Shown piece after piece: positions 4,668 to 28,116 of a DNA stretch of 64,000 nt. Every line of letters starts with the position of its first letter. Position 1 is the first letter of the stretch. The notes beneath the pieces were generated by a model. That model was not told the DNA's origin, searched no databases, and saw only the letters and a program-made list of their open reading frames with translations. The stretch spans positions 1 to 64,000 of the forward strand of contig NZ_SLUM01000006.1 of the NCBI RefSeq assembly GCF_004345265.1. Direction: 5' to 3'. The stretch is from Allofournierella massiliensis (lineage in GTDB: Bacteria; Bacillota; Clostridia; Oscillospirales; Ruminococcaceae). The translations under genes and the position numbers were made by a program.

Positions 4668-4718
4668 AAGCTCGAGTCCGTTTGGCCTGGCATGGCACAA
4701 ATGGATTCGAGCTTTTTT
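4668..4718. terminator. Bidirectional terminator between convergent genes
   Basis: An AAGCTCGAGTCC / GGATTCGAGCTT stem is followed by TTTTTT on the plus strand and by TTTTCTTTTC on the minus strand. It separates the DUF2085 gene from the convergent HTH regulator. Confidence 0.75.
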
Positions 4719-4738
4719 GTGGAGCTGGTGGACCCAAA

Positions 4739-6205
4739 TTAAACGAGTTTTCGGATGCAATAGTCAATAAAATCAACGGTATACTGCTTTGAACGTACAA
4801 ATCCGTTTGTTTCAAAATGAACCAAATAGTTAATGAGTGCGCTCGTAATGGAATCTTCATGTATATGGCAGCTGCGGAAAGAGGACTCATTTTTATGGAC
4901 GAGCTTCTGGAACATCTGTATCCCAGTGGATTCGTATACATCGATGATAACGTTGGGAGCAAGTGGGAGGAGCTTTGAATCAACCAGTCGAACAGGGGTG
5001 GGCGAGGTGATGCACAGCTCTTTCAGACGTTCCAGAAGAAGCCGCCGAATGGAGGGACTTAGAGGGTGGTAAAGATCATCGGGAACATCGCCAAGCTTCC
5101 CGTGGCTGACAAAGTCGAGCAATCCGTCCTCACTGAAATAGCAGGATGGTGCAAGGTTGATGATATCCTCAAGCCGATCGAGCAGGGACTGGATACCGGC
5201 CTGAGCAGAAATTGATTCCGGAAGAATTAAGCGCATAGCCAGGTTACTGTCGATGCAGCGCAGCAAAGGAGGATCATAGCGGAGCCAGCATGCCGGTCCG
5301 CCAGTTCGTGCAAGACTGTTGGTTTGGCGCATTGCTTGCTCACAACTGCAGGGTTGTGCATCTAGAAAAAGTGCTTTTTGAGTATTCAAATATTGCTGAC
5401 TGAATTGTTGACGAAGAAATTCCACTGCGTTGCTATCTTGAATATAAATGGCTTTTTGCTCAGAGATATCAATAAAAAGGGCAGCGGCAGGAAACAGCAA
5501 ATAAATTGGCATCAGGATACCGGGTGTTGGAATGGAGGTGCTGCTGTTGCACAAACGCGCCTGATACTGCATCTTTTCCAGAAACAGGAAGGGAACAGAG
5601 TTGGATAAAGTGCGCAGATTTTGCATAAAATCAAGTTCTGCATTTGTGTTTTTCGCAAAGAGGCAAAGCTGTTTTACGGTGTGATTGGTTGCTTCCGGAA
5701 GCGAAAAAACTTCCACAAGACAATCAGTCACAAGCTTGCTTGTGGTAGGGGAAAGATACAAAGGGAGCGCACTGTTTGAAGTGGCATAGCGGTACAAAAT
5801 CCTGCGCAGCCAGTTTTTTAAAGCGGTCAGCCCCTGAATGGTAAAAGGGGGAACGATTTGTTCAGAATCATGAAATAAAGGAGGGGTGCTGTAAGGAGCT
5901 AGAATGCTGCTTTGAACCATACAAATAGAACGCAGCAGCGAATAAATCTGAGAATTGCAGTCTTTTTCACTCTGACTGGAATGCGAAGCGTCGAACAGAA
6001 AGAGCATGGAGTGATATTGTTCTGGTGAGACGTTTAGCACATCCAGCAATGCACTAAGCTGAGAAGCGGTTGGTTTGCGTTCTCCGCGCAGGATTTTGTA
6101 AAGAGTTGAACGGTCAATGTTTGCTTTGCGGGCAATTTCGGCCATAGATATGGATCCAGAATGTTCCTGAATCAGCGATTTCAGACGATCGTGCAGCTCT
6201 TTCAT
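4739..6205 (-). CDS. HTH (Xre/Cro-type) regulator with a large unknown C-terminal domain
   Basis: The 488-residue product opens with a DNA-binding helix-turn-helix of the Xre/Cro-C1 class (about residues 5-62; ISMAEIARKANIDRSTLYKILRG). The remaining 425 residues match nothing I recognise; they are mixed in polarity, with no membrane segment and no obvious nucleotide or phosphoacceptor motif. The start at 6205 is preferred over an in-frame codon further upstream because AAGGAAGG lies upstream at acceptable distance. The gene is divergent from the giant surface-protein locus and shares its AT-rich intergenic region, where inverted repeats overlap the opposite promoter. I infer that it controls that locus, perhaps sensing a ligand through the C-terminal domain. 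Confidence 0.7.
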   Translation of the reverse strand: MKELHDRLKSLIQEHSGSISMAEIARKANIDRSTLYKILRGERKPTASQLSALLDVLNVSPEQYHSMLFLFDASHSSQSEKDCNSQIYSLLRSICMVQSSILAPYSTPPLFHDSEQIVPPFTIQGLTALKNWLRRILYRYATSNSALPLYLSPTTSKLVTDCLVEVFSLPEATNHTVKQLCLFAKNTNAELDFMQNLRTLSNSVPFLFLEKMQYQARLCNSSTSIPTPGILMPIYLLFPAAALFIDISEQKAIYIQDSNAVEFLRQQFSQQYLNTQKALFLDAQPCSCEQAMRQTNSLARTGGPACWLRYDPPLLRCIDSNLAMRLILPESISAQAGIQSLLDRLEDIINLAPSCYFSEDGLLDFVSHGKLGDVPDDLYHPLSPSIRRLLLERLKELCITSPTPVRLVDSKLLPLAPNVIIDVYESTGIQMFQKLVHKNESSFRSCHIHEDSITSALINYLVHFETNGFVRSKQYTVDFIDYCIRKLV

Positions 6206-6254
6206 TGGCGGATTTTCCTTCCTTTGTGTGATTGAGAGGGCGTTCCCGACAAAA

Positions 6255-6295
6255 GTGTGGCATAAAAGCTTCCTTGTGCCACACTGTTTGCCACA
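6255..6295. promoter_or_regulatory. Candidate operator: inverted and direct repeats of TGCCACA
   Basis: GTGTGGCA (6255-6262) and TGCCACAC (6277-6284) form an 8-bp inverted repeat, and a third TGCCACA occurs at 6289-6295, twelve bases after the second. The array lies just upstream of the -35 element of the surface locus and between it and the divergent HTH gene, a natural position for autoregulation or activation. Confidence 0.5.
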
Positions 6296-6297
6296 TC

Positions 6298-6326
6298 TTG
6301 TCACAAAATTTTTTGCTGTGTATAAT
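6298..6326 (+). promoter_or_regulatory. Strong sigma-A promoter of the surface-protein locus
   Basis: TTGTCA at 6298-6303 and a perfect TATAAT at 6321-6326 are separated by exactly 17 bases. The start codon of the first surface protein lies about 95 bases downstream, leaving an AT-rich leader. Confidence 0.75.
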
Positions 6327-6421
6327 GACCTCATGATAATTTTCACAAAACATACACAAAAAGTACAAAATTATCAATACCAAAAAAGAACTAAAATGTC
6401 AACAAAAATGGGGAGAACGCT

Positions 6422-9400
6422 ATGAAAAAACGATTGGTAGCATCGGTGCTTGCTTCGGCAATGCTGGCGGCGAGCATTCCGTTTCCGGCGTTTGCGGAGG
6501 AGCCATATCAATGCGATTTGGTTGTGGACCTCGCCGGAGCGGATCTGGAGGATGGCTATTTTGACCCGGGTGATATCGTAGACGTGACGATCTCGATTGC
6601 CAATGCGGGGTGGTCTAACCCGGATAGCGGTTCAGAACTGCTCGGTATGCAGTTTGGATTGAAGTTTGATGAGCAACTGTTCTCGTGGGTAAAAAATGCG
6701 AGGGACCAGATTTACACAGTTGGTAGTACGTTCGAAAACTATGCACCCATGGAAAACTCCGCGACCGGAGAATATCAGTTGTTTTTTTCTTCCGGGGAGG
6801 CCCCGGCGTTGACTGATGAAAAAATAGTTGTTGCAACCTGCCAGCTGCAAGTTGCTGACCCTGCCCCGGCTAAAGCGGGTGAAACGGAGATCGGTTTGCA
6901 ACTGGATGCAGATAATATCCTATTCGGCGACTTTGATACGGAGACGTATGTGGATGCGGTGGCCAATCTGGTTTCGGATTCTGCGTTGGTTGATACAATA
7001 GTGCCTGTGATTCAGCTGGAAGGCACTCCTGCTTCGGGCGAAGCGGTTTTTTATTATCAGCCGGTAGCGGTAAGCGTGACAGATGACAGCTCGACTACAC
7101 TGGCGCTGGATGGTAAACCTTGGAGTGGACAGTCTCTCACCGAGGGCGGAACATTATGCGCGACCGATGCCCGTGGCAATTCCGCAACCGTCCAGGTAAT
7201 CATTGATGCGGCAGCTTTCAATCAGGCGATTGCCGCAGTTGAACAAATTCCGGAAACCATAGATTACAAATCCATTTCTCTGATCCAGGCGGCGCAGAAG
7301 GCAATCGAAGCAGTGACAGATTCTGCGGCTTCTGCAAAATTGGCTGCACAGAAGCAGAAGGTTCAGGATGCACTGGGAAAATGGAATGCAATTGATGAGC
7401 AGGTTACCGCGGTTGAAAATCTGATTGCTGCATTGCCTGCCGATGTAAAGCCTTCGGATGCAGCGAAACTGGATGAGATTCAACAGAAGATTGACGAACT
7501 GAAAGAATTGGGCGTTGAGACTTCGGATATTGCAAATTATTCCGTATACAGTGCCGCCGTGGAGAATCTGGCAGGTGCATTGGCTGAGATCCAGGCTGTA
7601 CGGGACCAGATCAAGGAGCTGCCCGCAGCGGAGGATGTGAACTTTGCAGATGCTGCCGCAATCAATGGTGCAGAAAAGGCTGCAAAAGATCTGCAGGCCA
7701 AATATGGCGAGGAAGTCCTGTCGGCCGAGGATCTTGCTCCTCTGGTGGCAGCACAGGCCAAACTGAGTGAATTGAATGATGCCCGCAAGGCTCTGGTAGA
7801 GGAAATCGCAAATACGCAGCTGAACATCACCACTGCCCAGAAGGATCAGGACGCGATCCAGGCGCTGCGCGATAAAGTAACCGAACTGGAGGCGCTTGAG
7901 ACCACCTTTACAGCTGATGAGCTGAAAAATCTGGTGGATGCGGAAAAGGCAATGGCCGAGCTGCTGAAGCAGAGTGAGGAAGCGCACGCGGCTCTGGCAA
8001 AACTGCCTGCGCAGGACGAGGTACTCTACACCGATAAGGCGGCCATTGATGCAGCTCAGAAAATGGTGAAGGACCTGGAAGGCAAGGATACCTTTACCGA
8101 AGAAGAGCAGGCGAAACTGGCTGCGGCACAGGCTGGCTACCAGGATATTCTGGACGGAATTGCTCAGGTGGAAAGCGATATTGCGGCCTTGCCTGATGAA
8201 GTTACCCCTGATATGGCATCCCAGATTGCAGAATTGCAGCAGGCGATTGCCCGTTTGACCAAGCGTGCGGTTCCCGTCGCTGAAATTGAGGGCTATGATA
8301 AATATCAGGCTGCGGCAGATGCGCTGGAAAGCATTTTGGCTGAGATCCAGGCTGTACGGGACCAGATCAAGGCGCTGCCTGCAGCGGAGGATGTGAATTT
8401 TGCAGATGCTGCTGCAATCAATGGTGCAGAAAAGGCTGCAAAAAATCTGCAGGCCAAATATGGCGAGAAAGTTCTGTCGGCCGAGGACCTTGCTCCTCTG
8501 GCGGCAGCACAGGCCAAACTGAGTGAATTGAATGATGCCCGCAAGGCTCTGGTAGAGGAAATCGCCAATGCGCAGCTGAGCATCACCACTGCCCAGAAGG
8601 ATCAGGATGCGATCCAGGCGCTGCGCGATAAAGTAACCGAACTGGAGGCGCTTGAAACCACCTTTACCGCTGATGAGCTGAAGAACCTGGTGGATGCGGA
8701 AAAGGCAATGGCCGAGCTGCTGAAGCAGAGTGAGGAAGCGCACGCGGCTCTGGCAAAACTGCCTGCGCAGGACGAGGTACTCTACACCGATAAGGCGGCC
8801 ATTGATGCAGCTCAAAAAATGGTGAAGGACCTGGAAGGCAAGGATACCTTTACCGAAGAAGAGCAGGCGAAACTGGCTGCGGCACAGGCTGGCTACCAGG
8901 ATATTCTGGACGGAATTGCTCAGGTGGAAAGCGATATTGAAGCTTTGCCCGATGAAGTTACTCCCGATCAGCTCAATGTGATTTTGCAGATCCAGCATGC
9001 TATTTCGGCTCTTGCAGAACGTAAGGTGCCCACCGACGTAATCAAGGGGTACGAGAAGTACCAGGCCGCGGCAGATGCCCTGGAAGGCATTTTGGCTGAA
9101 ATTCAGGCAGTGCGGGATCAGGTGAATGCGCTGCCTGACAAAGAAAATGTTTGTTTCACGGATGAAGCAAACATTGAAAATGCGGCAAAGGCAGTGAAGG
9201 CCCTGCAGGAAAAATATGGGGCTGATGTGCTGACTGAAAAGGAATTGGCTCCGCTGGCAGCTGCTCAGGAGGGTCTGACCGAACTGAAGGCTGAACGGGA
9301 GCAGCTGGTTCAGGATATCGCGAACGCAGAGCTACCCGTTACCTTGAAACGGGAGGATGTGGAGCGCATCGAGGCTTTGCGCGAGCGTGTGAAAGCTTTG

Positions 9401-10471
9401 GAAGCAAGGAAAGCGGAGTTTACGCAGGAAGAACTGCTGGTACTGACCAATGCGGAGAAAGCTTTGGAACAGCTGAAAGAGCGCAGCAGCGATGCCCATA
9501 AGGCTCTGGATTCCCTGCCCGGAAGAGATGAGATCCTGTACACCGACAATGTAAAGCTGGAACAGCTGATTCACGAGATGAATGAGTTGGAGGCTTTGGG
9601 CGATACCTTCACCGCGGAAGAGAAGGCTAAGGTGGAAGCTGCACAGGCTGGTCTGAAGGATCTGGACGAGCGCCTGGAGGCACTGGCTGCCAGAATGAAA
9701 GCCGTGGATGGGGAAGTGATTTACAGCGATATTTCCTTGCTGGCCTCCATCGATCAGGAAAAAGTGGCGCTGCAGGCGAGAGGCTGTCCCATTGATGAAA
9801 ATACCGTTGGCAAAGAAGCACTTGATCACTACGCTGTTTTTGTTGCAGCGATTTCTGCAATGAAGAAGGAATTGGCGGATTTGAACCAGGATATGGAAGA
9901 TGCGCTGGACCATTGGAGCTACAACAACGAATCCGCGTTTGATGCGATTCGTGTGAAGATGGATGCGGCGGCTCAGAAGTATCAGATGACGGGCGATCAG
10001 AAGAAGGCTGTGTTTGCACAGTACTCGGAGAGTCAGGATCGGAATGCGGAGGTTAAGAAACTTCTGGATGAGGCAAAGCAGGAAATCAACGATCTGCCCA
10101 AAGATATCACGCTGGATCAGAGCAAAGATGTTGCGGCAATCACGAATCTGCTTGATAAGCTGATCAAGGAATATGGTTTGACGAATAAAGTGCTTGAGAC
10201 GGAATTGGGCACAGCATACACCACTTATAAAAACGCAGTGTCCAAACTGGAAGATCTGAAGGAGGAAAAGCCTGATTCGCAGGAACCGAGTGGCGGCCAG
10301 ACGGCAAACGGCGGGGCTGAACCTCAGAGTACACAGGCTCCGGCTGCGGCACAGGGAACCTCGCCGTCCACAGGCGACTCGTTTAATCTGTTGGCAATGG
10401 CCGGTGTCTTTATGACGGCGGCAATTGGCTGGATCGTATTGAAAATTGGCATCCGGCGCCGGGAAGATTAA
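6422..10471 (+). CDS. Wall-anchored cohesin-like surface protein with long helical repeats
   Basis: The 1349-residue protein has a signal peptide (residues 1-26, ending AFA) and a cohesin-like beta-sandwich (about 30-195; PGDIVDVTISI, GMQFGLKFDEQLF, a late LFFSSGE strand and LGDFDT-like end). An Ig-like segment of about 65 residues follows, then roughly 1040 residues of predicted helix. This stalk is built of about 63-residue subunits grouped into three 252-residue units. A Pro/Gly/Ala-rich spacer leads to a sortase-type end: SPSTGDS, one membrane helix and a RRRED tail. The cohesin head would bind a dockerin, and the stalk would hold it away from the wall. The next gene encodes a dockerin protein. 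The anchor motif is a variant of LPXTG; no sortase gene lies in the window. Confidence 0.8.
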   Translation: MKKRLVASVLASAMLAASIPFPAFAEEPYQCDLVVDLAGADLEDGYFDPGDIVDVTISIANAGWSNPDSGSELLGMQFGLKFDEQLFSWVKNARDQIYTVGSTFENYAPMENSATGEYQLFFSSGEAPALTDEKIVVATCQLQVADPAPAKAGETEIGLQLDADNILFGDFDTETYVDAVANLVSDSALVDTIVPVIQLEGTPASGEAVFYYQPVAVSVTDDSSTTLALDGKPWSGQSLTEGGTLCATDARGNSATVQVIIDAAAFNQAIAAVEQIPETIDYKSISLIQAAQKAIEAVTDSAASAKLAAQKQKVQDALGKWNAIDEQVTAVENLIAALPADVKPSDAAKLDEIQQKIDELKELGVETSDIANYSVYSAAVENLAGALAEIQAVRDQIKELPAAEDVNFADAAAINGAEKAAKDLQAKYGEEVLSAEDLAPLVAAQAKLSELNDARKALVEEIANTQLNITTAQKDQDAIQALRDKVTELEALETTFTADELKNLVDAEKAMAELLKQSEEAHAALAKLPAQDEVLYTDKAAIDAAQKMVKDLEGKDTFTEEEQAKLAAAQAGYQDILDGIAQVESDIAALPDEVTPDMASQIAELQQAIARLTKRAVPVAEIEGYDKYQAAADALESILAEIQAVRDQIKALPAAEDVNFADAAAINGAEKAAKNLQAKYGEKVLSAEDLAPLAAAQAKLSELNDARKALVEEIANAQLSITTAQKDQDAIQALRDKVTELEALETTFTADELKNLVDAEKAMAELLKQSEEAHAALAKLPAQDEVLYTDKAAIDAAQKMVKDLEGKDTFTEEEQAKLAAAQAGYQDILDGIAQVESDIEALPDEVTPDQLNVILQIQHAISALAERKVPTDVIKGYEKYQAAADALEGILAEIQAVRDQVNALPDKENVCFTDEANIENAAKAVKALQEKYGADVLTEKELAPLAAAQEGLTELKAEREQLVQDIANAELPVTLKREDVERIEALRERVKALEARKAEFTQEELLVLTNAEKALEQLKERSSDAHKALDSLPGRDEILYTDNVKLEQLIHEMNELEALGDTFTAEEKAKVEAAQAGLKDLDERLEALAARMKAVDGEVIYSDISLLASIDQEKVALQARGCPIDENTVGKEALDHYAVFVAAISAMKKELADLNQDMEDALDHWSYNNESAFDAIRVKMDAAAQKYQMTGDQKKAVFAQYSESQDRNAEVKKLLDEAKQEINDLPKDITLDQSKDVAAITNLLDKLIKEYGLTNKVLETELGTAYTTYKNAVSKLEDLKEEKPDSQEPSGGQTANGGAEPQSTQAPAAAQGTSPSTGDSFNLLAMAGVFMTAAIGWIVLKIGIRRRED
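7583..9850 (+). repeat. Three in-frame tandem repeats of 756 bp (252 codons)
   Basis: Units start at 7583, 8339 and 9095, an exact 756-base period. Units 1 and 2 are nearly identical at the DNA level over their first 600 or so bases; unit 3 has diverged. Each unit holds four related helical subunits of about 63 residues with recurring LP, YTDKAAID, FTxEE and AAQA motifs. The near-identity points to recent duplication or gene conversion. Confidence 0.9.
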
Positions 10472-10490
10472 GCGAAACAGTACTTTATAA

Positions 10491-10545
10491 AAGGGAGAGA
10501 AGAGACCAGATGTGGAATGCAGAGGGAACTTCTCTCCCTTTTTTA
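10491..10545 (+). terminator. Terminator between the first and second surface genes
   Basis: A perfect 12-bp stem (AAGGGAGAGAAG at 10491-10502 with its complement at 10529-10540) is followed by a T run. It is likely to set the ratio of scaffold to downstream transcripts. Confidence 0.8.
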
Positions 10546-10571
10546 AAAATGTTGAAGGAGGAAATCAGAGG

Positions 10572-13500
10572 ATGAAACATGTTTTGTCGCTGGTGCTAGC
10601 GTTTGCGATGCTCACAAACGTATTTGCACCTATGATCTACGCGGCTGAATCGGTTCCTCAGAATTCCGCTGGAATCGTTCAGCTCACTGAGGATGAATTG
10701 GCTGCGGTTTCGGGAGAAGCGGAAGAGCCTGCCGTGACTGTGGAGCCTACGGTTGAGCCGGAGGAGCCTGTCGCAACTGCGGAGCCCACGGCCGAGCCGG
10801 AGGAGCCTGCCGCAACTGCGGAGCCCACGGCCGAGCCGGAGGAGTCTGTCGCAACTGCGGAGCCCACGGTCGAGCCGGAAGAGCCTGCCGCAACTGCGGA
10901 GCCCACGGCCGAGCCGGAGGAAGCTGTCGCGACTGCGGAGCCCACGGCCGAGCCGGAAGAGCCTGCCGCGACTGCGGAGCCCACGGCTGAGCCGGAAGAG
11001 CCTGTCGCAACTGCGGAGCCTACATCTGAACCGGTGGAGGCAGAGACTGCTCCAAATGCGGCAGTTGTCTTGGATGACAGTGAATTGGACCCGGAGACCA
11101 CGGCGATTTTCTATGAGGCTTCGGAGCCGGGATGGTATTACGGCAAAGTTCCTGTTGCAAAGAATCCTGGTGGCAGCAAACTCGCAGAAAACTTTGAATT
11201 CATACAAGCGGACGGGTTTCATGTCATCTTAACGAAAACCAATGTGGTGGTGATCGATGGGGAGTATTGGCTCTTTGTCCATGCCAACAATGCGTTTGAA
11301 CCGGCCGAAATTACCTATCGGGATGTTTGGGCGACAGCTGAAGAGGGAATGGATCAAACAGTATCGGTGCCTGCGGCTGTGTGCATCGGTCAACCGGATG
11401 AACTGCCTCCGGTTATGCAAACCTCCAACGGCTTTGTTTCCAGTACTATTAAGACCAACATTTCGAAGCTCACAAAATATGATACGGATTACAGCGGAAC
11501 GATTTCCCTGGATACAGCCGGAGCAAGCCTGCTGTATGTGAGCGGCGAGGGCGGCGTGCAGGTGACACAGCAGCCCAATGAAAATGGTGAATTTACGTTC
11601 CGGTTCCCCTCCGGAATCCAGTATGTTCTTCCGAATGAATCTACACCTGCCAGACTGTGGTTCTATGCGGCAGATGCGGACGGTAATATCTACACAAGAC
11701 CATGGGAACTGAATCTCCAACCGGGAGAACAGGTAAACGTCAATTCGGAGACCACACTGTACTGGCGTGGATTGCTCAGCGAAGAGGGAAGTGCGATTAC
11801 ACCGACCTTGAACGATATGGGTCAATCTATTACCGGCTGGTCCAATATGGGAACGGTTATCCCCGACCAGATTACTGCAAAACTGATGAACAACAATGGG
11901 GAGTCGTTGGTGGAGCCGGTTACGGCAACCTACGATGCGCAGCAGGATAAGGTAATCGTTAAGAGCACGGAGATGCCGCAGACAAACGTAGATCAGTGGT
12001 ACCTGGAGGTATTGGTACCCTGTGAAGAGGGTTATACCCTGCGTTTGGGAACTTATCCGCAAAAAGAACAACTGTATACAGAAATTCACTGGGATGCATT
12101 GAGTTTGGGTTTGAAGCAAGGCTCCACCCTGACTGGTAAGGTGTTCCAGCAGAATGAGGAAAACTATCAGTTTGATATTCCGTTTACGCCGGGAGAGGGC
12201 TATAGAGCATCTTTGCAGTGCTACGGTTTGTCGATGGATGCAGAAGAAACCGTAGATGACTATCTTGCGGCATCGTTTGATGGCAATACCGGCAAGGTCA
12301 CGGTTACAGTACTGAAAGATCTGAAACTCTATTCCACCAACAGCACATTCAACCTGACAGTAGAAGGCGATTTTGCATACACCTATGCGATGAGCGGCAG
12401 CATTGGTGCCCCCACTGCATATTGGGAAGGTGGTTCTCCGGAGTGGAATCAACTGCTCTCCAGTGAAGGCGTTCAGGTGAATGTATATTGTTATAATTCC
12501 CCCAGCAACGTGGATGGCTGGTCTAACATGGGCACCATCACGGGGGAGCCGATTGTAACGCTTACCCAGTCGAACGGTGGTGAGAGCACGGATTATTCGG
12601 ATCTGCTCACTGCTTATTATGACGAAGCGGCTGACCGCGTTGTGCTCAAGCTGGCACAGTTGCCGGAAGATATGTCGGGGTATTGGAACCTTGCAATCAC
12701 CATGCCATACGAAGGCTATGAGATCCGTGTGCAAAGTCAAATTCAACAATCTTACCGGACAGTTCGGATTGTTCCAGACAGCGGATTGCTAAGCCTGGGT
12801 ACAACAGCAGGCAGTAAGATGGCTGGAACGATTGAGGTGTATGATGAAAGCGGGAAATATTTCCCGATGCAGTCTGAGCTCGCTTGGAATGTTACCATTT
12901 CCGGAAGCGGAATCACGCTGGCCAGTGGGGAACAGATCAGTGATTATGTGAATGTAACGCTGGAGCCTTCTACCGGAAAGTTGACTGCGGAAGTATTGAA
13001 GGATCTGGAATGTTCGCAAAACGCTTCCATTAAAGTGAATGCCGAATCTGCAACCGAGCGTTTCAGCACATCGTTCTCTGTGGGAATACCTGAACTTGAT
13101 CTTGAATTCAGGCAGAATGGTGGACATGCATATTCTCTGGAGCTTCGCGAAGGAGAGGAATATGAGCTGGAAGTTGGTACAACCAGCCTGGGCAACTATC
13201 AAGGTCTGGATTCTCTTGGCCTGAAATATGAGGCAGTGATTTATCGTGGCAATAAGGCAGACGGCAACTATCCTTCGGAAGAATTTATTGATGCCGCTGA
13301 TTACATCACTCTGACGCAGACCAATGGCAAAATCCGGATTTCTATTGATAAAATGCCCCCGCTCTATGATTATGAAAATGAGCAGGAGTACAAGTATCTG
13401 CTGGGAATCCGTTCGGTCAACAATGATTTTACGGTTTCCGAGTACAGCGGAGTCCATTTTGAAACGGGCTGGAATCCAGTACAGCTGATTCTTTTGAAAG

Positions 13501-16500
13501 ATGGCAGCACGTTGGTGGATACCTTACCGATCAAGCAGGGAGAGTACACCTATGCACTGAAAGCGGAACAGAATGGTAACAGTGTGGACCTTTCTGAAGT
13601 CGGTATAAACTGGAAAGTGACAACCAATACTTTCTATTTGGATGGAAAGATGGTTGCTGCGGCGGACTACGAGATTCGCTTGGATCTGGAAAAGATGACC
13701 ATGACCTACACGCTGAAGCGTGATCTGGAGGGTGTTTCCGGAAATGTGCAGCTGCAGGGTTATTTGGGAGATACCACCTATTTCAGCTCTTCTTGGAGTG
13801 CGGGCTTGCAGAATTTGAATTTGTCGTTCTATGACTTGAACGGCGGCGAGTCGGTAGGTGGATACAGCTACGATTTCAATGAAGAGAAAACCCAGTTCCG
13901 GATCATTGCAAAGAACAGCAGGGGCGTACTGGTGCCGGACAGCAAACTGAGTGATGCCAACTACACGATTGTAGCGGTGGAAGATAATCTGGAAGTGCCT
14001 TTGCAGGAAAGTCAGTACTTCAATGCATCGATCCAGAATCATATGCTCCGTGTGGAAGTGAAAAAGGCGCCTCCAAAGAACTATGGATATGGAATCAAGG
14101 TTCTGTATCAGGATGATGTTTATAAGGCAGAAGACCAGATTACTTACCGAACGGATTCTTCTTCCAAGTACTATAACCTCCGGCTGATTGACCTGAGCAC
14201 AGGAGAGAATACCTATAACATACCCATCGGCACACCTGGTTTGCAAAAAAGCTATCGTGTGCTGGACAACCAGACACAGCAGAAACTCAGTGATGTGATT
14301 GGGCCTGATCTGCTTGGTTTGGAGATCGAGGCATCCAATGGTATGGATGTTTCTCCGTATGTGGAATGTCAGTATGACGTGAAGACCAGTACCCTGACGC
14401 TCATCTGGAAGGATAGCAATCTGCCCATTCGCACTGAAAATGGGGGAGAGCTCCGTTACAGTCTGACAGAAGTTATGACCCCGGAAACGCAGGGGTCGGT
14501 ATCGATTTATGCGGAACTGTTCCGTGCATACCTCTCGCTGAACATTCCCCAGCGAATGGCTCTGGGTACAAAGCGGGTTTGTGTATCCCGTGAATACCAG
14601 ATCGATCCCGATGTTTTGTATAAGGTAACCACAGAATCTGGCATGTCGGTAGAGAAGGAGCCCATATCCGTTGAAGTTACGGAAGAGGGTGCGCTTCAGC
14701 TGACAGTAGCTCCGGATGCGAAAACTGGTGCCTATAAACTGAATATCATTGGCACAGTAGATGGCGGGAAATATCAGTTTAATCACACCAGCACCATCGA
14801 AATTGCAGAGACTGGCAGTGAGGTCCCAGGGTTTGCCTACCGGCTGGAGACGACGGATGCAGCAATCTATGGTGATGACAACCAGTACGAAGACGGGGAC
14901 AGAGTTTATATTCCTTTGCAGAGCAAAGAGGCCAAAACGACGATTACTCCGGTCGATAACAGTGAGGTTGCCGATCTGCAGATCTCAGGTCTCACGCTTG
15001 GTACGGCAGAAAAAACAGCAAGTGGTATTGTAGTTTCCTGGAATGGCGTCAAGGGAACCGACAATATTGTGCTGACGGCATCGATGAAGGATGGAAGTCA
15101 AATTCAAACACATATTACAATCGAGTGCAACATCGATGGTGAACTGCTGATGTATGATTCGCCTTCCTTTGTTCGGATGGGAAGCAGTGTTTGGATTGTT
15201 GGCAAGCAGTATCGAGTCTATCCGCTGGTGGATGGAATGACCCTGAAAGATCGGGGCTATACGCTGAAATACGCAGAGATTCTGGACGAAACTTATTATC
15301 GTGTGGAAGAGGTATACGCAGACGGAAGCATTGTGATTGTTCCGGTGAAGACACGCAATTCCGACCAGGGGGCCTATGCGATGATGGAAATGGTCTATCT
15401 GGATGAAAATGGAATTGAGCGGAGCACGAGTATTTCGCTGTCGTATGGTACAATTGTAACTCAGGGCAACCGAATCAACTTCGAGTCCGAGGATGGATCG
15501 GTGGTTACTGAGGTTCGTATGGCACCTGGAGATTCGACGACGCTGCAGCTTAGCGATACCGATATCAAGACGGTTGAATATGGAGCAAATGTGACCGATT
15601 CGCTGTCCTGGACTGCAGATCCCAACAATCCGGGTGTGGTCACATTGACCATGAATCACTCGACGGCATACAATGATGTGTACTTCTATGCAACTGTTAC
15701 CCGAGCGGATGGAACACAAACCTCGGCGTACACGGTAGTCAACTATCAGAGTCAATATAATCCTGGAAAGCTGCCCGATGATTCTCGGATCTGTTTCGGT
15801 AGCAAGGGAGAAGATGGCGCCTACGATAGCTGGACTGGAAGTACGTACCAGAAGAGAGAGGGCGTCTATACCGGCAAGCTTTATGTGTTCTACAAGGATA
15901 GCGGCGAAAATGTTTCGGAAACCAATGAGCTGGTTGAATCCATGAAGATCACGTCGGGCAGCGATTCGGTGACGATCCTGCGTCAGGGCCTTGAAAACGG
16001 AATGACCTTCTTCGAGTATCAGGTTGATCTGAGCCAGTATGTGGAGGCCAAAATTTTTGCAACAGCAACATTGACGAATGGAGCAACCTGTGAGGCTGTT
16101 TACACGATCAATGTGATTGAGGCTCCTGCTGGTAATCAGGTGACGGTGAAAAATGCCCAGGAGCTGAATCAGGTGTTGAATAGCGCTACTCTGCTGCCGG
16201 GCACTATGATCCGCCTGGAAACTGGCGATTACGAAGGTGACTTTGTCTGTGAGGTTCCCTGCACGATCAGTGGTAATTCCAATCAGGTCAATCTGGTGGG
16301 TACCATGAAATGCCTTGCCTCGCCCGTCACGGTTTCTCAAATTCACTTTGTTGGAAGTGGACAGGAAATCGGCCTTTACGCAGCGCACAATATTGGACTC
16401 TGCAGTTTCAGTGGTTATCAGACGGCAGTGGCGATGGATCCCCGGCAGAATAGTTCCTATTCTTCCTACAGCATTATGAGTGATACGTTTGAAAATAACG

Positions 16501-17954
16501 GCACTGCCATTCGCTTCCTGAACAAAGAATGGTATACCACGCTCAATGGCTGCCGTTTTATCAACAATGATGTTGCAGTGGAATTCGATTCGGGCTGCGT
16601 GATTGATGGCGAATATTCGCTGGCGTATGATTGTGTAACGTCGAGAGGGCGGATGAATCGCAACGTATTCTACCTGGATGAAGGGCAGTATATGATTGTG
16701 AATAACGCCAGCAACGGCGCAACTGCAAACTTTACCTACAACTATGTCAAATACACCGATGCTGAAGGTACAGTAACAGAGCAGCCGACGGCAGCAATGG
16801 TCAAGGGCCCGGTACTCTATAGCCCGTACTATGTATCGGAGAACTTTGACGGGGTAGAGACCGATGAGTCTCTGGAAGATGTTGTGGATGAGAACGGAAA
16901 CAGCTCGCTGACCCTTGTGGGGGCTCAGGGCAGCTCCGATCCCAACACAGCAGACAGCTCGCTTCAGTTGAGCGGCAGCAAGTTCGAGGAGCTGCGTGAT
17001 TCTGACGCGGTCAAGTCCATGGAAGTGACGGTTAAGAGCACCAGCGGCGAAACCGACATCATCTGGACTTTTGATGATAATGAACTGCGGGAAGACTACG
17101 ACGGTTCCAGTGTAAATCTGGGCGTGGCATTTACTTTCACTGATTTTGAGTACGATATGGTCAACAATATCGTGAAAAAGTCTACCGAAAGCACAGAGAA
17201 GGACCCTGTGACAGGCGAGTACATCTCGGAAACCATGGAGAGCATCGCCTATCAGGCCATGTGCTTCAGCCACAGTGGTCCGTTGCCCGGAACGGCTACC
17301 GTAAAGGTTCGTATGAACGAAAGCCTAATGGAATATTACTTGACCCATGGCAACAGCCTGGAGGGCTTCAAGGTTTACTATCTGAATACCGAAACTGGCA
17401 AGCTGGAAAAGATGGACAAAACGCTTGAGGTGACGGTGGAAGATGGTGTATACTTCTATCAGCTGGACATTGATCATTGCTCGAGCTATATTCTGACCGA
17501 TGAAGAACTGAAAGAAGACATTTCCGGTTTCCTGAAGATTATGCTGGGAGACGACGCATATCAGCTGGTTGATAATATGCTCAGCCGTCTGCCTGAAAAA
17601 GCAACGATTGCCGAAGTCCTGTCTCATCTGACGGGCGGTACCCTGACAGTGCTGAACCAGTCCGGTGAAAGGGTTGGTGAAAACGCCACGATTGCCACCG
17701 GTTATACCATTGGCTTGGGCGACGGTAAAGTCGGTCAGATCACAGCGGTTGTACACGGCGATGTGGATGGTAATGGTTTGATCAATATGGCGGACCTTGT
17801 TGCCATACGCAGAGGTGTGATAGGTATGAAAACTCTGGAAGGCGCATATTTGGAAGCTGCGACTCCGGCTAGCAAAAATGATTCTGCCCCGCAGTTGTCG
17901 GATATGGTTCGCCTGCGCAGATACATACTGGGTCTGACGACAAGCGTTTTCTAA
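10572..17954 (+). CDS. Giant secreted multidomain protein ending in a dockerin
   Basis: The start at 10572 has AAGGAGG ten bases upstream and gives a 2460-residue protein with a signal peptide (MKHVLSLVLAFAML, cleaved near YAAES). Next come seven 13-residue Glu/Pro/Thr repeats (residues 64-154), then a long series of beta-rich Ig-like modules. A right-handed beta-helix-like region spans about 1855-2065 (NAQELNQVLNSA, then short repeated turns). A module about 2150-2340 ends IDHCSSYILTDEE, like the last domain of many Clostridia surface proteins. The final 65 residues are a type-I-like dockerin: GDVDGNGLINMADLVAIRRG is a complete first calcium loop, and the second half (DSAPQLSDMVRLRRYILGL) is degenerate. 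No catalytic motif was recognised. It is probably displayed on the cell through a cohesin. Confidence 0.8.
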   Translation: MKHVLSLVLAFAMLTNVFAPMIYAAESVPQNSAGIVQLTEDELAAVSGEAEEPAVTVEPTVEPEEPVATAEPTAEPEEPAATAEPTAEPEESVATAEPTVEPEEPAATAEPTAEPEEAVATAEPTAEPEEPAATAEPTAEPEEPVATAEPTSEPVEAETAPNAAVVLDDSELDPETTAIFYEASEPGWYYGKVPVAKNPGGSKLAENFEFIQADGFHVILTKTNVVVIDGEYWLFVHANNAFEPAEITYRDVWATAEEGMDQTVSVPAAVCIGQPDELPPVMQTSNGFVSSTIKTNISKLTKYDTDYSGTISLDTAGASLLYVSGEGGVQVTQQPNENGEFTFRFPSGIQYVLPNESTPARLWFYAADADGNIYTRPWELNLQPGEQVNVNSETTLYWRGLLSEEGSAITPTLNDMGQSITGWSNMGTVIPDQITAKLMNNNGESLVEPVTATYDAQQDKVIVKSTEMPQTNVDQWYLEVLVPCEEGYTLRLGTYPQKEQLYTEIHWDALSLGLKQGSTLTGKVFQQNEENYQFDIPFTPGEGYRASLQCYGLSMDAEETVDDYLAASFDGNTGKVTVTVLKDLKLYSTNSTFNLTVEGDFAYTYAMSGSIGAPTAYWEGGSPEWNQLLSSEGVQVNVYCYNSPSNVDGWSNMGTITGEPIVTLTQSNGGESTDYSDLLTAYYDEAADRVVLKLAQLPEDMSGYWNLAITMPYEGYEIRVQSQIQQSYRTVRIVPDSGLLSLGTTAGSKMAGTIEVYDESGKYFPMQSELAWNVTISGSGITLASGEQISDYVNVTLEPSTGKLTAEVLKDLECSQNASIKVNAESATERFSTSFSVGIPELDLEFRQNGGHAYSLELREGEEYELEVGTTSLGNYQGLDSLGLKYEAVIYRGNKADGNYPSEEFIDAADYITLTQTNGKIRISIDKMPPLYDYENEQEYKYLLGIRSVNNDFTVSEYSGVHFETGWNPVQLILLKDGSTLVDTLPIKQGEYTYALKAEQNGNSVDLSEVGINWKVTTNTFYLDGKMVAAADYEIRLDLEKMTMTYTLKRDLEGVSGNVQLQGYLGDTTYFSSSWSAGLQNLNLSFYDLNGGESVGGYSYDFNEEKTQFRIIAKNSRGVLVPDSKLSDANYTIVAVEDNLEVPLQESQYFNASIQNHMLRVEVKKAPPKNYGYGIKVLYQDDVYKAEDQITYRTDSSSKYYNLRLIDLSTGENTYNIPIGTPGLQKSYRVLDNQTQQKLSDVIGPDLLGLEIEASNGMDVSPYVECQYDVKTSTLTLIWKDSNLPIRTENGGELRYSLTEVMTPETQGSVSIYAELFRAYLSLNIPQRMALGTKRVCVSREYQIDPDVLYKVTTESGMSVEKEPISVEVTEEGALQLTVAPDAKTGAYKLNIIGTVDGGKYQFNHTSTIEIAETGSEVPGFAYRLETTDAAIYGDDNQYEDGDRVYIPLQSKEAKTTITPVDNSEVADLQISGLTLGTAEKTASGIVVSWNGVKGTDNIVLTASMKDGSQIQTHITIECNIDGELLMYDSPSFVRMGSSVWIVGKQYRVYPLVDGMTLKDRGYTLKYAEILDETYYRVEEVYADGSIVIVPVKTRNSDQGAYAMMEMVYLDENGIERSTSISLSYGTIVTQGNRINFESEDGSVVTEVRMAPGDSTTLQLSDTDIKTVEYGANVTDSLSWTADPNNPGVVTLTMNHSTAYNDVYFYATVTRADGTQTSAYTVVNYQSQYNPGKLPDDSRICFGSKGEDGAYDSWTGSTYQKREGVYTGKLYVFYKDSGENVSETNELVESMKITSGSDSVTILRQGLENGMTFFEYQVDLSQYVEAKIFATATLTNGATCEAVYTINVIEAPAGNQVTVKNAQELNQVLNSATLLPGTMIRLETGDYEGDFVCEVPCTISGNSNQVNLVGTMKCLASPVTVSQIHFVGSGQEIGLYAAHNIGLCSFSGYQTAVAMDPRQNSSYSSYSIMSDTFENNGTAIRFLNKEWYTTLNGCRFINNDVAVEFDSGCVIDGEYSLAYDCVTSRGRMNRNVFYLDEGQYMIVNNASNGATANFTYNYVKYTDAEGTVTEQPTAAMVKGPVLYSPYYVSENFDGVETDESLEDVVDENGNSSLTLVGAQGSSDPNTADSSLQLSGSKFEELRDSDAVKSMEVTVKSTSGETDIIWTFDDNELREDYDGSSVNLGVAFTFTDFEYDMVNNIVKKSTESTEKDPVTGEYISETMESIAYQAMCFSHSGPLPGTATVKVRMNESLMEYYLTHGNSLEGFKVYYLNTETGKLEKMDKTLEVTVEDGVYFYQLDIDHCSSYILTDEELKEDISGFLKIMLGDDAYQLVDNMLSRLPEKATIAEVLSHLTGGTLTVLNQSGERVGENATIATGYTIGLGDGKVGQITAVVHGDVDGNGLINMADLVAIRRGVIGMKTLEGAYLEAATPASKNDSAPQLSDMVRLRRYILGLTTSVF
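10734..11033 (+). repeat. 39-bp in-frame tandem repeats (E/P/T-rich)
   Basis: Seven units with a 39-base period start at 10761, each encoding EEPxATAEPTxEP; a partial unit precedes them. The resulting stretch is acidic, proline-rich and probably extended, as a flexible spacer after the signal peptide. Such arrays change copy number easily. Confidence 0.9.
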
Positions 17955-18001
17955 TGCTCTGACCGATTAGTTGTGTAAAAGCAGCCGAATAAAACGGCAG
18001 G

Positions 18002-18033
18002 AGGCCCGGCGAATAGTTTGCCGGGCCTCTTTT
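18002..18033 (+). terminator. Terminator after the giant dockerin gene
   Basis: AGGCCCGGC and GCCGGGCCT (18002-18010, 18020-18028) form a 9-bp perfect stem followed by CTTTTC. The short T tract and the closeness of the next ribosome site suggest partial read-through. Confidence 0.65.
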
Positions 18034-18050
18034 CGCAGAAAGGGGAGCTT

Positions 18051-18947
18051 ATGAAAAAAGTTTTTGTATGCGCGGTGATTGCGCTGGCGGCACTCTGGTG
18101 CGGTATAGGCGCAAGTGCTGCAGAATCCACTGCCCAATTTTCTGCAACAGGCCCTCTAAAAGTGGCAACTGGCGAAGGGTTTGATGTGGTAATATCCTGT
18201 ATAACAACAGATACACCTACTGCCGGTGTGTTGTTCACCTTGGAAATTCCGGAAAATTATGTATTGCAGGATGTGAAACCTGGCGAAGGAATCGAACGAT
18301 CGGAATTCTCTTACAGCTCTTCGGGCAGTGAACTGATACTAATGTATTTGGATGACCAGGGAGGAGAAGGTGGTTTGCAGGGAGGAGAAGAGCTTGCAGT
18401 AATCACACTTGCGGCAAGAGAGGCTGATGAAGGAGCGCCGCTGGTGTGTATGGAGGTGGATGCAAGCGCAGTAACGGTAGGTGGAGACGTGATTTCTCAG
18501 GCCGGAACACTTGAGGTTGCGAAGGTTTCCGTGGAGGGAAGTGCGGTCTCCTTGCCGGAAGCTCCTCCCAGTGCAATGGAAGAGGGGGAACAAAAGGACG
18601 ACCTGCTTCAGGGGGCAACTGGTTCTTCTGAAGTGGCCACGGTGGAAGAGGCTTTGAAGGGGGAAACTCCGGCAGCTTCTTCCCAACAATCTGAACCCAA
18701 CGAGGAAAAAGCGGAAATCATTACCGATGCAAACGGAAACCGAGTGCAGGTGATCACGGATGGTACGTCCCAAGAGGTAAACGATATTACCGAGCAGGTC
18801 TTGGGTGGAAAACCTGCTACCGCACCGCAGAACGCTGAAGAAATGAAACCTCAGGCAAAGATACCGTGGGGATATGTGGCAGTTGCGGGTGTTGTTACGG
18901 CTTGTGTGGGTGCTGGCGTTTTTGTTTGGAGAAAAAAACGCAGGTGA
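18051..18947 (+). CDS. Membrane-anchored cohesin-like protein
   Basis: The 298-residue product has a signal peptide (residues 1-26, ending ASA) and one cohesin-like beta-sandwich (about 30-160; VATGEGFDVVISC, AGVLFTLEIPENY, GGEELAVITLAAR). An acidic Ser/Thr/Glu linker of about 115 residues and a single membrane helix with a RKKRR tail follow. It lacks a sortase motif, so it is tethered in the membrane. AAAGGGGAG lies before the ATG. Placed after the dockerin protein, it could be a second docking site or an assembly intermediate. Cohesin-like folds can also bind carbohydrate, so the role is inferred from context. Confidence 0.7.
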   Translation: MKKVFVCAVIALAALWCGIGASAAESTAQFSATGPLKVATGEGFDVVISCITTDTPTAGVLFTLEIPENYVLQDVKPGEGIERSEFSYSSSGSELILMYLDDQGGEGGLQGGEELAVITLAAREADEGAPLVCMEVDASAVTVGGDVISQAGTLEVAKVSVEGSAVSLPEAPPSAMEEGEQKDDLLQGATGSSEVATVEEALKGETPAASSQQSEPNEEKAEIITDANGNRVQVITDGTSQEVNDITEQVLGGKPATAPQNAEEMKPQAKIPWGYVAVAGVVTACVGAGVFVWRKKRR

Positions 18948-18974
18948 TTTTGGCTGGTCTGTAAAACAATAATA

Positions 18975-19016
18975 AAACAGGGTGCCGCCATCTATGGCAG
19001 CACCCTGTTTCATTTT
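18975..19016. terminator. Bidirectional terminator
   Basis: AAACAGGGTGC / GCACCCTGTTT forms an 11-bp stem at 18975-18985 and 19000-19010 with a T-rich tail. It closes the surface locus and can also serve the convergent rlmD-like gene. Confidence 0.75.
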
Positions 19017-19081
19017 ATATAGAGTTTTCAGAAAAGAGAATGAAGGGAGCATCTGATGAGGATAAATTGGTGTGCATTGAT

Positions 19082-20227
19082 TTACCGCAATTGCAGCAAA
19101 GCGATGGATTCACAATGCTCTGTGTGGGGGAACAGGTCCACAGGCTGGATGAAGGTTGCTTTCCAGCCGCGGGCGGTCAGGTATTCCAGATCCCGGCGCT
19201 GCGTTTCCGGGTTGCAGGAGATGTATACCACCCGCTCGGGGGCCAGCTGACAGACCGCCTGCAAAAACTCCGGGGTACTGCCTGCACGGGGCGGGTCCAG
19301 AATGACCACATCCATCCGCTCGCCCTGCTGGGCCATGCGCTGGATGGCGCTGGTGGCGTCCGCGCAGAGGAAGCGGGCGTTGGCAATGCCGTTGGCCCTA
19401 GCGTTCTGAACGGCGCAGTTCACTGCGCTGCGGTTCAGCTCCACGCCCAGCACCGACTTTGCCTTACCAGCGCAGGAAAGGCCGATGGTGCCCACGCCGC
19501 AGTAGGCGTCCAGCACGGTCTGACTGCCGTTTAACCCGGCGGCTTCGATGGCCGTCTGGTATAGCCGCTCGGTCTGTACCGGATTTACCTGATAGAAGCT
19601 GGCGGCGGAAAGCCGGAATGTTACCCCACACAGGGTATCTTCAATGTACCCCTTGCCGTACAGCAGCTTTTCGACGCTGCCCAGCACCGCGCTGGAATGG
19701 CGGGGGTTGATGTTCTGCACCACGGTGCTCACCGCCGGGCACAGCTGGCGCAGCTTGGTTACAAAGGCTTTGGAACCGGGCAGAGCCGTCTGAGCGGTGA
19801 CCAGGCAGACCAGCACCTGACCGGTGGCGCGGCTGTGGCGCACCAGTACATGGCGGATCAGGCCGGTACGACGATCCTCGTTGAAGGGTTCGTAACGACA
19901 GGCGGCAGCAGCGGCACGCACCGCTGCAATGGCCTCGTCCAGTGCAGGGTTGTGCAGCAGGCATTCCTCCACCGGAATCACCCGGTGGGTGCCCTGGGCA
20001 TAGATGCCGCTTTGCAGGCTGCGGCTCGGGCCGGTGCAGAAGGTGGACACCGCCTTGTTCCGGTAGTGCCAGGGGTCCTCCATGCCCAGAATGGGCCGGA
20101 CGGTTCCGAACTTGCCCAGCAGTTTTTCCGTATCCTTCTGCTTTTTTGCCAGCTGCTCCGCGTAGGGCAAACCAAGCAGCGGGCAGCCGCCACAGCCCTT
20201 TTTGCGGCAGGAACAGGTGTTTTTCAT
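19082..20227 (-). CDS. 23S rRNA (uracil-5-)-methyltransferase, RlmD/RumA family
   Basis: The 381-residue protein carries a short N-terminal Fe-S motif (CSCRKKGCGGCPL) and a Rossmann methyltransferase domain with LDAYCGVGTIGL for SAM binding, ILDPPRAG, and the catalytic YISCNPET loop. It is a TrmA/RlmC/RlmD-type enzyme that makes 5-methyluridine in RNA. The TRAM domain found in many relatives is missing at the N terminus. The start at 20227 is chosen because GGAGGAG, inside the end of the upstream gene, precedes it; the gap to that gene is five bases. Which RNA position is modified cannot be assigned. Confidence 0.85.
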   Translation of the reverse strand: MKNTCSCRKKGCGGCPLLGLPYAEQLAKKQKDTEKLLGKFGTVRPILGMEDPWHYRNKAVSTFCTGPSRSLQSGIYAQGTHRVIPVEECLLHNPALDEAIAAVRAAAAACRYEPFNEDRRTGLIRHVLVRHSRATGQVLVCLVTAQTALPGSKAFVTKLRQLCPAVSTVVQNINPRHSSAVLGSVEKLLYGKGYIEDTLCGVTFRLSAASFYQVNPVQTERLYQTAIEAAGLNGSQTVLDAYCGVGTIGLSCAGKAKSVLGVELNRSAVNCAVQNARANGIANARFLCADATSAIQRMAQQGERMDVVILDPPRAGSTPEFLQAVCQLAPERVVYISCNPETQRRDLEYLTARGWKATFIQPVDLFPHTEHCESIALLQLR

Positions 20228-27135: not shown

Positions 27136-28116
27136 TCACAGGTCAAAGGATCGGGCACGGGGCGCGCCGAACCGCCGGTTCTGGTATTCCAGCAGAAGGC
27201 CCAGAGCCTCGGTGCGGCGGGCGGTGCGGGCCATCTCGCAGCCCTCGGCCAGCGCCGGCCGGCCCAGCAGATCCAGACTCAGCAAAAAGGAGAGGGGAGC
27301 GGTGTCCGCCTCGGTCAGCACCAGCTCCAGCACCTGTTCGGTGTGCTGTTCCAAACAGGAAAGATAGGCCGTGCGGGCAGTTTCGCTCAGCTGCACCGGA
27401 AAGCGCAGCCGGTCCATCGCCATGCGCACCGCCAGCGAAAATTCGTGGGTGCGCAGCAAAAGATCCAGCGAAGCGTCGTACTGGTCATAACGGAAACAGT
27501 GACCATCAAAGCTCTGGCGGCACAGGTAACCCACGCCCCGGATGTTGTAATGGAAGATGTGGGGGGCGGCCATCTCCTCGTAGTCCTCGTCGTAGGCGGG
27601 GAAAAACAGCCGGCACTCCGGCCCGGCGGCGGGGGCAAAGCACAGCTCCAGCTCGCCGGAATACTCCTGCAGCAGTCCCCGCAGGCAGCGGCATTCCTCC
27701 GCCGGTGCGGTCAGGGTCATCCGCCGCAACGAAAAGCAGTTCATGAAAGCGTCGGTGCCTACGGTCTGCAAATGGCCGCCGATCTCCAGCGCCTCCAGCC
27801 CGGTGCAGCCGTAAAAGGCATAGTTGCCCAGAGAGAGGGCCTTTTGGGGCAGGCGTACCATCCGCAGGGCCGCCGCATCATGGGCGGGAAGTTCCTCACC
27901 GCCGCTGGTCAGGCGCAGCGTAAAAGCTCCCTCCGGCAGCTGCTTTGGTTCTCTGGCACTGAAAACGTAATCCCCCAGGCGGATGATGGGCAGGCCGTCC
28001 AGCTCATCCGGCAAAAGCAGCTGGGGAGCGCTGGTTTCGCAGCGCAGCAGGGCAACGCCGCCCGCCTCCCGGCAGCAGGTGAGCAGCGCGTCGCATTCAG
28101 CGGGCACAGAACGCAT
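27136..28116 (-). CDS. BspA-type leucine-rich-repeat protein of the ATPase/VWA operon
   Basis: The 326-residue protein has no signal peptide and carries a BspA-like LRR pair in the middle (LGNYAFYGCTGLEALEI, then VGTDAFMNCFSLRRMTL). The C-terminal half is helical with repeated LSFLLSLDLLG-type segments resembling ankyrin-like or HEAT-like packing; no enzyme motif is visible. It is first in the operon, behind a good promoter, and its stop lies inside the ribosome site of the VWA gene. I infer a substrate-recognition or scaffold role for the ATPase/VWA pair, but this is only context. Confidence 0.6.
   Translation of the reverse strand: MRSVPAECDALLTCCREAGGVALLRCETSAPQLLLPDELDGLPIIRLGDYVFSAREPKQLPEGAFTLRLTSGGEELPAHDAAALRMVRLPQKALSLGNYAFYGCTGLEALEIGGHLQTVGTDAFMNCFSLRRMTLTAPAEECRCLRGLLQEYSGELELCFAPAAGPECRLFFPAYDEDYEEMAAPHIFHYNIRGVGYLCRQSFDGHCFRYDQYDASLDLLLRTHEFSLAVRMAMDRLRFPVQLSETARTAYLSCLEQHTEQVLELVLTEADTAPLSFLLSLDLLGRPALAEGCEMARTARRTEALGLLLEYQNRRFGAPRARSFDL

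Follow-up and report, generated by a model that had tools for sequence, protein, structure and literature searches.

A Putative One-Client Cohesin/Dockerin Display Cassette with Two Candidate Anchors in Allofournierella massiliensis

In the genome of Allofournierella massiliensis we analyzed a window of 64,000 nt (contig NZ_SLUM01000006.1, positions 1 to 64,000) and within it a four-gene locus, here called A-B-C-D, where genes for three putative surface proteins, the middle one ending in a dockerin, follow one another behind a divergent regulator gene. We read the locus as a horizontally acquired cohesin/dockerin display cassette with one client and two anchors, a reading to which we give a probability of about 0.7 and which makes the cassette a variant of a pairing common in genomes of the same family. 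B, C and D would all be secreted, B being attached to the wall by sortase and D held in the membrane through its C-terminal segment, and the C-terminal dockerin of C would clip this protein noncovalently to a cohesin-like head: that of D by analogy of gene position, that of B by sequence, or perhaps either, with the stalk of B holding C away from the wall. Both the dockerin-head binding and the choice of head we infer. A preliminary description of this DNA, made without database searches, had proposed such a system, and that first reading of the locus is partly supported by the results below.

Results

A giant putative client with a C-terminal dockerin

Gene C (10572..17954, plus strand) encodes a giant secreted client of 2460 amino acids (aa) without a C-terminal anchor, and the C-terminal dockerin that the preliminary description had assigned to it is borne out by homology. 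In phmmer searches the module matches 21 PDB sequences at E ≤ 1. At the top are two chains that carry dockerin-type repeats under the name 'Serine protease' (8x39_A at best, E = 1.7e-7), followed by the dockerin chains of scaffoldin B (4uyp_B, 7.3e-5) and xylanase Y (2ccl_B, 1.1e-4), the weakest being two unrelated phosphofructokinase sequences. Matches to C occur in 10 of 247 family genomes, the genome under study included, and 11 of the 12 matches outside that genome cover its last ~140 residues, the other one covering a module at ~2201-2314 (genome G193); as at most two candidates were scored per genome, further relatives of the body of C may be missed by these counts. The best match to the tail is itself the tail of another large protein (G120; C residues ~2336-2453, 40%, E = 6.9e-13). 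Judged by sequence, the C terminus of C is a homolog of known dockerins, with a match beyond chance. A separate search of genome contigs with C as query gave 17 pattern matches, none of them a relative.

The two dockerin repeats differ in their state of preservation. Repeat 1 (17757..17825, +) has the canonical calcium loop GDVDGNGLINMADL, and repeat 2 (17856..17933, +) keeps its helix (DMVRLRRYILG), with the loop ligands lost by our reading of the alignments. The proposal of a type-I-like loop thus holds for the first repeat and for the homology as a whole, but the second loop reads as degenerate and the Pfam dockerin model PF00404 stays below its cut-off of 22.9 bits, reaching 12.1 bits on whole C and 16.9 bits in the genome search.

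Cohesin-like head, stalk and sortase-like tail of B

Gene B (6422..10471, +; 1349 aa) joins a signal-peptide-like start, a cohesin-like head, a helical stalk and a sortase-like tail. Against a profile built from 19 cohesins that Pfam detects in related genomes, its head (6494..7003, +) scores 90% in hhalign (E = 1.6e-6), whereas the controls (12 shuffles, eight segments of C and an fn3 domain) stay at or below 4.9%; in hmmsearch with the plain cohesin profile it ranks top among eight proteins and 200 shuffles (E = 1.1e-6). Both scores agree with the preliminary description, and by sequence profile the head of B is cohesin-like, the cohesin fold being a jelly-roll beta-sandwich. Neither the B head nor D retrieves anything from the PDB by phmmer at E ≤ 1, and weak matches of the B head in four other genomes were left unused. 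Of the profile searches that had been suggested as a check, those for cohesins thus recovered the B head through our own profile, but Pfam cohesin PF00963 has no match in the A. massiliensis genome, B and D included, even at E ≤ 10, and the dockerin model, as given above, remained sub-threshold.

The tail of B (10361..10468, +) reads SPSTGD, a hydrophobic segment and RRRED, resembling a sortase-type sorting signal; it matches an NCBIfam LPXTG-family model below the cut-off (E = 0.0063), and the genome holds seven sortase matches, six of them over cut-off. On this sequence evidence B is probably fixed to the wall by sortase. Between head and tail lies the alanine/glutamate-rich stalk (7208..10261, +), read as helical from its composition and from weak SMC-type matches, with a 300-nt repeat in three copies spaced by 756 nt.

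D as a candidate second anchor

Gene D (18051..18947, +) encodes a small secreted protein of 298 aa made up of a head, a linker and a C-terminal membrane anchor, and it occupies the position that the anchored partner has in other pairs. The preliminary description had called it a second cohesin-like membrane protein: the membrane part is consistent with a C-terminal hydrophobic segment followed by WRKKRR (18858..18944, +; no LPXTG-like motif seen), but the head (18120..18527, +) scores weakly and is best described as a cohesin-like candidate by profile. An extended profile gives it E = 0.0079 in hmmsearch, better than any of 200 shuffles, and the plain one gives E = 1, inside the range of the shuffles; since the extended profile was built by adding the heads of loci L080, L081 and L115 (91, 52 and 97% in hhalign) to the plain one, the better score rests on the heads chosen. 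In hhalign the D head gives 6% with the plain cohesin profile, 12% with the three heads added and 44% with B added too, the best control reaching 6.8%. Compared directly, the D and B heads align at 1% in hhalign, which is not significant, with a MAFFT identity of 27%.

A profile of 11 partner heads that includes both B and D has 35 PDB matches at E ≤ 0.1, of which 29 are cohesin chains by reading and the remainder designed Ig proteins and pullulanases, and it matches the NagJ cohesin 2jh2_A at E = 6.1e-7; because five of the 11 heads are Pfam cohesins, these matches say little on B or D. The six other members of the genus contain no match to D. Weak matches of its head in five other genomes were dropped, the one examined (G095) sharing mainly the signal peptide with D.

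Partners beside lone dockerins in family genomes

A dockerin match at E ≤ 0.001 is present in 109 of the 247 family genomes; 48 of the 109 have exactly one, and others have 25 or more. To the loci of 44 of 50 lone-dockerin genomes with a match, one each, we added the second locus of the A. massiliensis genome, giving 45 loci (genomes G044, G054, G077, G126, G167 and G246 fall outside this count). A pair was called where a secreted and C-terminally anchored protein was found in the interval from 60 nt before to 400 nt beyond the dockerin gene's end, using our own hydrophobicity script rather than a trained predictor. By this rule an anchored secreted protein lies directly downstream in 24 of 45 dockerin loci vs. 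4 of 407 other ORFs (Fisher p = 1.4e-23), where the control is the longest-non-overlapping set of open reading frames (ORFs) from the same loci, some of which are no genes; against secreted-like control ORFs the figures are 24 of 45 vs. 1 of 28 (p = 7e-6).

Cohesins point the same way. Pfam detects one at E ≤ 0.05 in 22 of the 50 lone-dockerin genomes, 18 of them over cut-off (G246, though among the 22, is not strictly a lone-dockerin genome because it has three dockerin matches), and for 18 of these 22 the cohesin maps no further than 10 kb from the dockerin (16 of 18 for those over cut-off). On another contig it is found in four of the 22 (G054, G123, G160 and G176), and in three of the 18 the nearest cohesin is in the dockerin's own ORF (L087 in G112, L086 in G139 and L057 in G174), these genes coding for adaptor-like or self-associating proteins. 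When both criteria are joined, a separate anchored or cohesin gene stands beside the dockerin gene in 31 of 45 loci, and beyond these there are two loci with a same-ORF cohesin and two with a partner seen by eye and missed by the script (L061 and L062). The proposed one-client display thus gains from lone dockerins lying beside an anchored or cohesin gene far above chance, but of the two heads only that of B is clearly cohesin-like.

These associations bear on an alternative that we hold to be improbable, namely that the dockerin of C is a calcium-stabilized end module unrelated to display, with B, C and D being separate surface proteins that travel together. Repeat 2, which appears to have lost its calcium ligands, and the presence of some lone dockerins in self-anchored proteins would fit such a module; the linkage of lone dockerins to cohesins (18/22) and to anchored partners (24/45 vs. 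4/407) argues against it, as does the lack of an anchor in C itself.

From the 24 partners we picked ten for a Pfam scan, in which five exceeded the cohesin cut-off (G072, G195, G007, G220 and G200), and those of G160, G110, G112, G151 and the second A. massiliensis locus did not reach it. Eight further loci (L112-L119) yielded one clear pair, L115 (7114-10890, from a roe deer rectum metagenome-assembled genome), where a client with C-terminal dockerin is followed after 12 nt by a 487-aa anchored cohesin-like protein matching the cohesin profile at 97% in hhalign. In L112, L113, L117, L118 and L119 the matched gene is not immediately followed by an anchored partner in our listing; L114 is cut by a contig end, and L116 is ambiguous, its anchored ORF giving no cohesin match (hhalign 0.1%).

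The position and nature of these partners also bear on the possibility, which we regard as somewhat doubtful, that only one head of the cassette is the dockerin receptor, B being the cohesin and D a protein of another kind, such as a helper in the export or folding of C, that just happens to lie downstream. This is a narrower form of the two-anchor reading, and the odds of the two overlap. It would accommodate the good scores of the B head and the weak ones of the D head, and the plausible wall anchor and stalk both belong to B; yet the anchored partner elsewhere is encoded directly downstream, in the position of D, and is a Pfam cohesin in half of those scanned, and it is the upstream B that is the unusual element.

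M60 pairs and the second pair of the genome

Clients fall into two kinds: M60 peptidases with the dockerin nearer the N terminus, and varied bodies with a C-terminal dockerin, to which the window belongs. By Pfam, the latter bodies show BspA-type repeats in G195 and no other family in G110, which holds the closest look-alike of C plus B, with a 2135-aa client ending in a dockerin and a partner on a FIVAR stalk. The window departs from it in flanking the client with anchored proteins both upstream and downstream.

M60 peptidases are linked to mucin. An M60 gene was detected in 14 out of 148 genomes. In 12 of them it is immediately followed by an anchored partner, nine by script and three by eye (G003, G131 and G134). 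In G036 the dockerin and the M60 match are split over two consecutive ORFs, with an anchored ORF after them; for the M60 gene of G120 no anchored partner was seen. Pfam detected no dockerin in the G003 M60 gene; in the M60 genes of G120 and G131, judged by simple pattern alone, none was seen either. Within the genus of the window an M60-type gene pair is found in seven of seven genomes, the partner in G006 being cut by a contig end; the calls rest on Pfam M60 in G000, G002 and G003, and on length, HExxH and partner in G001, G004, G005 and G006.

A second thread ties the window to these pairs, because an accessory module stands on client C here and on the anchor there. In C it precedes the dockerin (16854..17501, +; residues 2095-2310) and aligns in hhalign with the middle domain of seven M60-pair anchored partners at 81% (E = 1.2e-5, 69 columns) and with the G005 partner at 77%, with six control segments of C at 0.8% or less.

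The A. massiliensis genome contributes such a pair of its own, outside the window on contig C5 (L004:6606-13521), where a client with an M60 peptidase domain (PF13402, E = 1.5e-9) and an internal dockerin is followed after 46 nt by the gene of a 368-aa secreted, membrane-anchored protein. The statement that no other cohesin or dockerin gene is near holds in the window, but a second dockerin with an anchored neighbor exists on another contig; that no glycoside hydrolase is near agrees with its absence among ten further window ORFs, a subset of the window, that were scanned. With the pairing recurring in the family and a second pair in the same genome, the window system is not a one-off. Dockerin recognition has been assigned to positions 10, 11, 17 and 18 (PMC4081043), and by our reading these are M, A, R, R and L, S, R, R in the dockerin of C vs. 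G, D, V, N and L, A, A, D in the other one; since the recognition residues differ, the two dockerins would not share partners.

We also considered whether the locus might be a leftover or stray member of a multi-enzyme, cellulosome-like system whose other clients are encoded elsewhere, and rejected this as very improbable. Many family members do have 25 or more dockerin matches, but the A. massiliensis genome, which is 96.8% complete, has two in all and no Pfam cohesin, and its other dockerin has an adjacent partner of its own and, by reading, different recognition residues. A scaffoldin with several cohesins alongside many dockerin enzymes was not found in this genome.

Gene layout and the inserted segment

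B, C and D are three consecutive plus-strand ORFs. By eye, all three begin with a signal-peptide-like sequence and are preceded by a plausible ribosome site; they are spaced by 100 nt (B-C) and 96 nt (C-D) and would form a single transcript. Divergent from B and within the insert lies gene A (4739..6205, minus strand), an XRE-type helix-turn-helix (HTH) regulator of 488 aa counted from the Met at 6205 (Pfam HTH_3, E = 2.4e-10). A dedicated regulator had been claimed, and such a gene is indeed present, although its control of B-C-D is our inference. A sigma-70-like promoter site (6298..6326, +; 11 of 12 matches, 17-nt spacer) precedes the start of B by 95 nt, and with 18 sites found in the scan vs. 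13.4 expected in shuffles it is weak on its own.

The whole of A-B-C-D constitutes an inserted cassette of ~14.4 kb (4723..19110, edges approximate), its left edge directly past a hairpin near 4716 and its right edge near 19110. In the close relatives G004 and G003 the flanking genes adjoin, with less than 100 nt between aligned ends and identities to the flanking genes of the window of 80-98% and 84-99%, thus presenting the empty site, where G003 lacks the left flank's isochorismatase-like gene. None of the four genes has a match in the loci of five relatives; G001, G002 and G006 show no empty site because the left flank is missing or different there. The insert genes have 46.0-52.5% GC each vs. 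58.3 and 59.5% in the flanks. No direct repeats were found within either edge region, each being searched separately rather than compared with the other. Gain by transfer would be the natural reading, with loss in both relatives as a less likely alternative.

Near the start of C lies a PT/E-rich tandem repeat with a 39-nt unit (10722..11045, +). As an observation in its own right, this repeat (window 10672-11100) codes for EEPVATAEPTAEP-like units and is overlapped by four other ORFs of at least 80 aa on both strands. Between D and the convergent RumA gene is a terminator-like hairpin of 20 pairs (18971..19014), called by the scan on the minus strand only. Elsewhere in the window, a small BspA-type LRR protein is encoded at 27136-28116 on the minus strand (LRR_5, E = 2e-8).

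Discussion

Several results weigh against the display reading. The head of D scores under any usual threshold, and AlphaFold models of the B head (with a B plus D alignment) and of a C-dockerin/D read-through (with a 7-row alignment) reached mean pLDDT values of 40.3 and 39.5, so low that they were not used. By profile, the heads of the M60-pair partners are not detectable as cohesins (27% or less), nor is that of G112. No anchored downstream partner was called by the rule in 21 of the 45 loci. Two of these do have a partner by eye; Pfam places a cohesin gene close by in seven and a cohesin within the dockerin ORF itself in two; contig ends truncate three (L051, L064 and L088); and seven are left without a direct candidate (L063, L066, L067, L070, L076, L085 and L089), L085 having an interrupted client with an anchored ORF further on. 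Finally, in L057, L063 and L066 the lone dockerin sits inside a large protein with its own C-terminal hydrophobic anchor, so that the anchoring of these proteins cannot depend on the dockerin and a lone dockerin need not imply a separate anchor.

With these points in view, we still favor the one-client, two-anchor display cassette for the window, and we propose a more general reading only tentatively: lone dockerins in non-cellulosomal family members may mostly be one half of a general display system, comprising one client and an adjacent anchored cohesin that is often diverged beyond recognition, with M60 peptidases as a recurrent client and the window as a mobile, two-anchor version in which the client is perhaps caught by D and handed to B. 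What C does at the surface is a guess, adhesion or contact with a matrix being our suggestion.

Known systems offer partial parallels. Pairwise cohesin-dockerin contacts have been described for Clostridium perfringens (PMC12997984), whose X82 cohesin/dockerin proteins resemble the cassette in that a single cohesin meets a single dockerin, with no many-cohesin scaffold; each of the five cohesin proteins there also has a glycoside hydrolase domain (PMC12997984), whereas B and D have no enzyme domain over the Pfam cut-off. Cellulosome anchoring scaffoldins likewise present a cohesin on an LPxTG or C-terminal transmembrane (TM) protein, the 'nonSLH-anchoring' class (PMC11557425), but serve many dockerin proteins, whereas in the window one client is encoded next door. 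The Limousia mucinolysome shares cohesin/dockerin use on a non-plant substrate, mucin, with an LPxTG-anchored cohesin (cSca5) and dockerin peptidases (PMC12997984); it is, however, a multi-enzyme system with tandem-cohesin scaffoldins, while window-type systems are single pairs. A single cohesin of Ruminococcus albus has been proposed to hold isolated dockerin enzymes at the cell surface (PMC6118326), but there each genome has several dozen dockerins and an adaptor-like cohesin-dockerin protein (PMC4081043).

According to the Hungate1000 paper, Clostridiales with few dockerins and no detected cohesin are most likely non-cellulosomal (PMC6118326), and a 2024 survey mentions proteins with one cohesin and a C-terminal TM helix in a microbe presumed not to be cellulolytic (PMC11557425). 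Searches of the open literature, outside which most subscription papers lie, gave no account of a recurrent dockerin client with an adjacent anchored single partner, nor of dockerin M60 pairs.

New cohesin/dockerin pairs of this kind, possibly with separate specificities, would be building blocks for protein complexes. For the biology of the family, our results suggest that many dockerins in such supposedly non-cellulosomal Clostridiales have a partner next door, partly missed by Pfam, and that, through dockerins paired with an adjacent partner, surface proteins including predicted M60 peptidases can gain a place at the cell surface.

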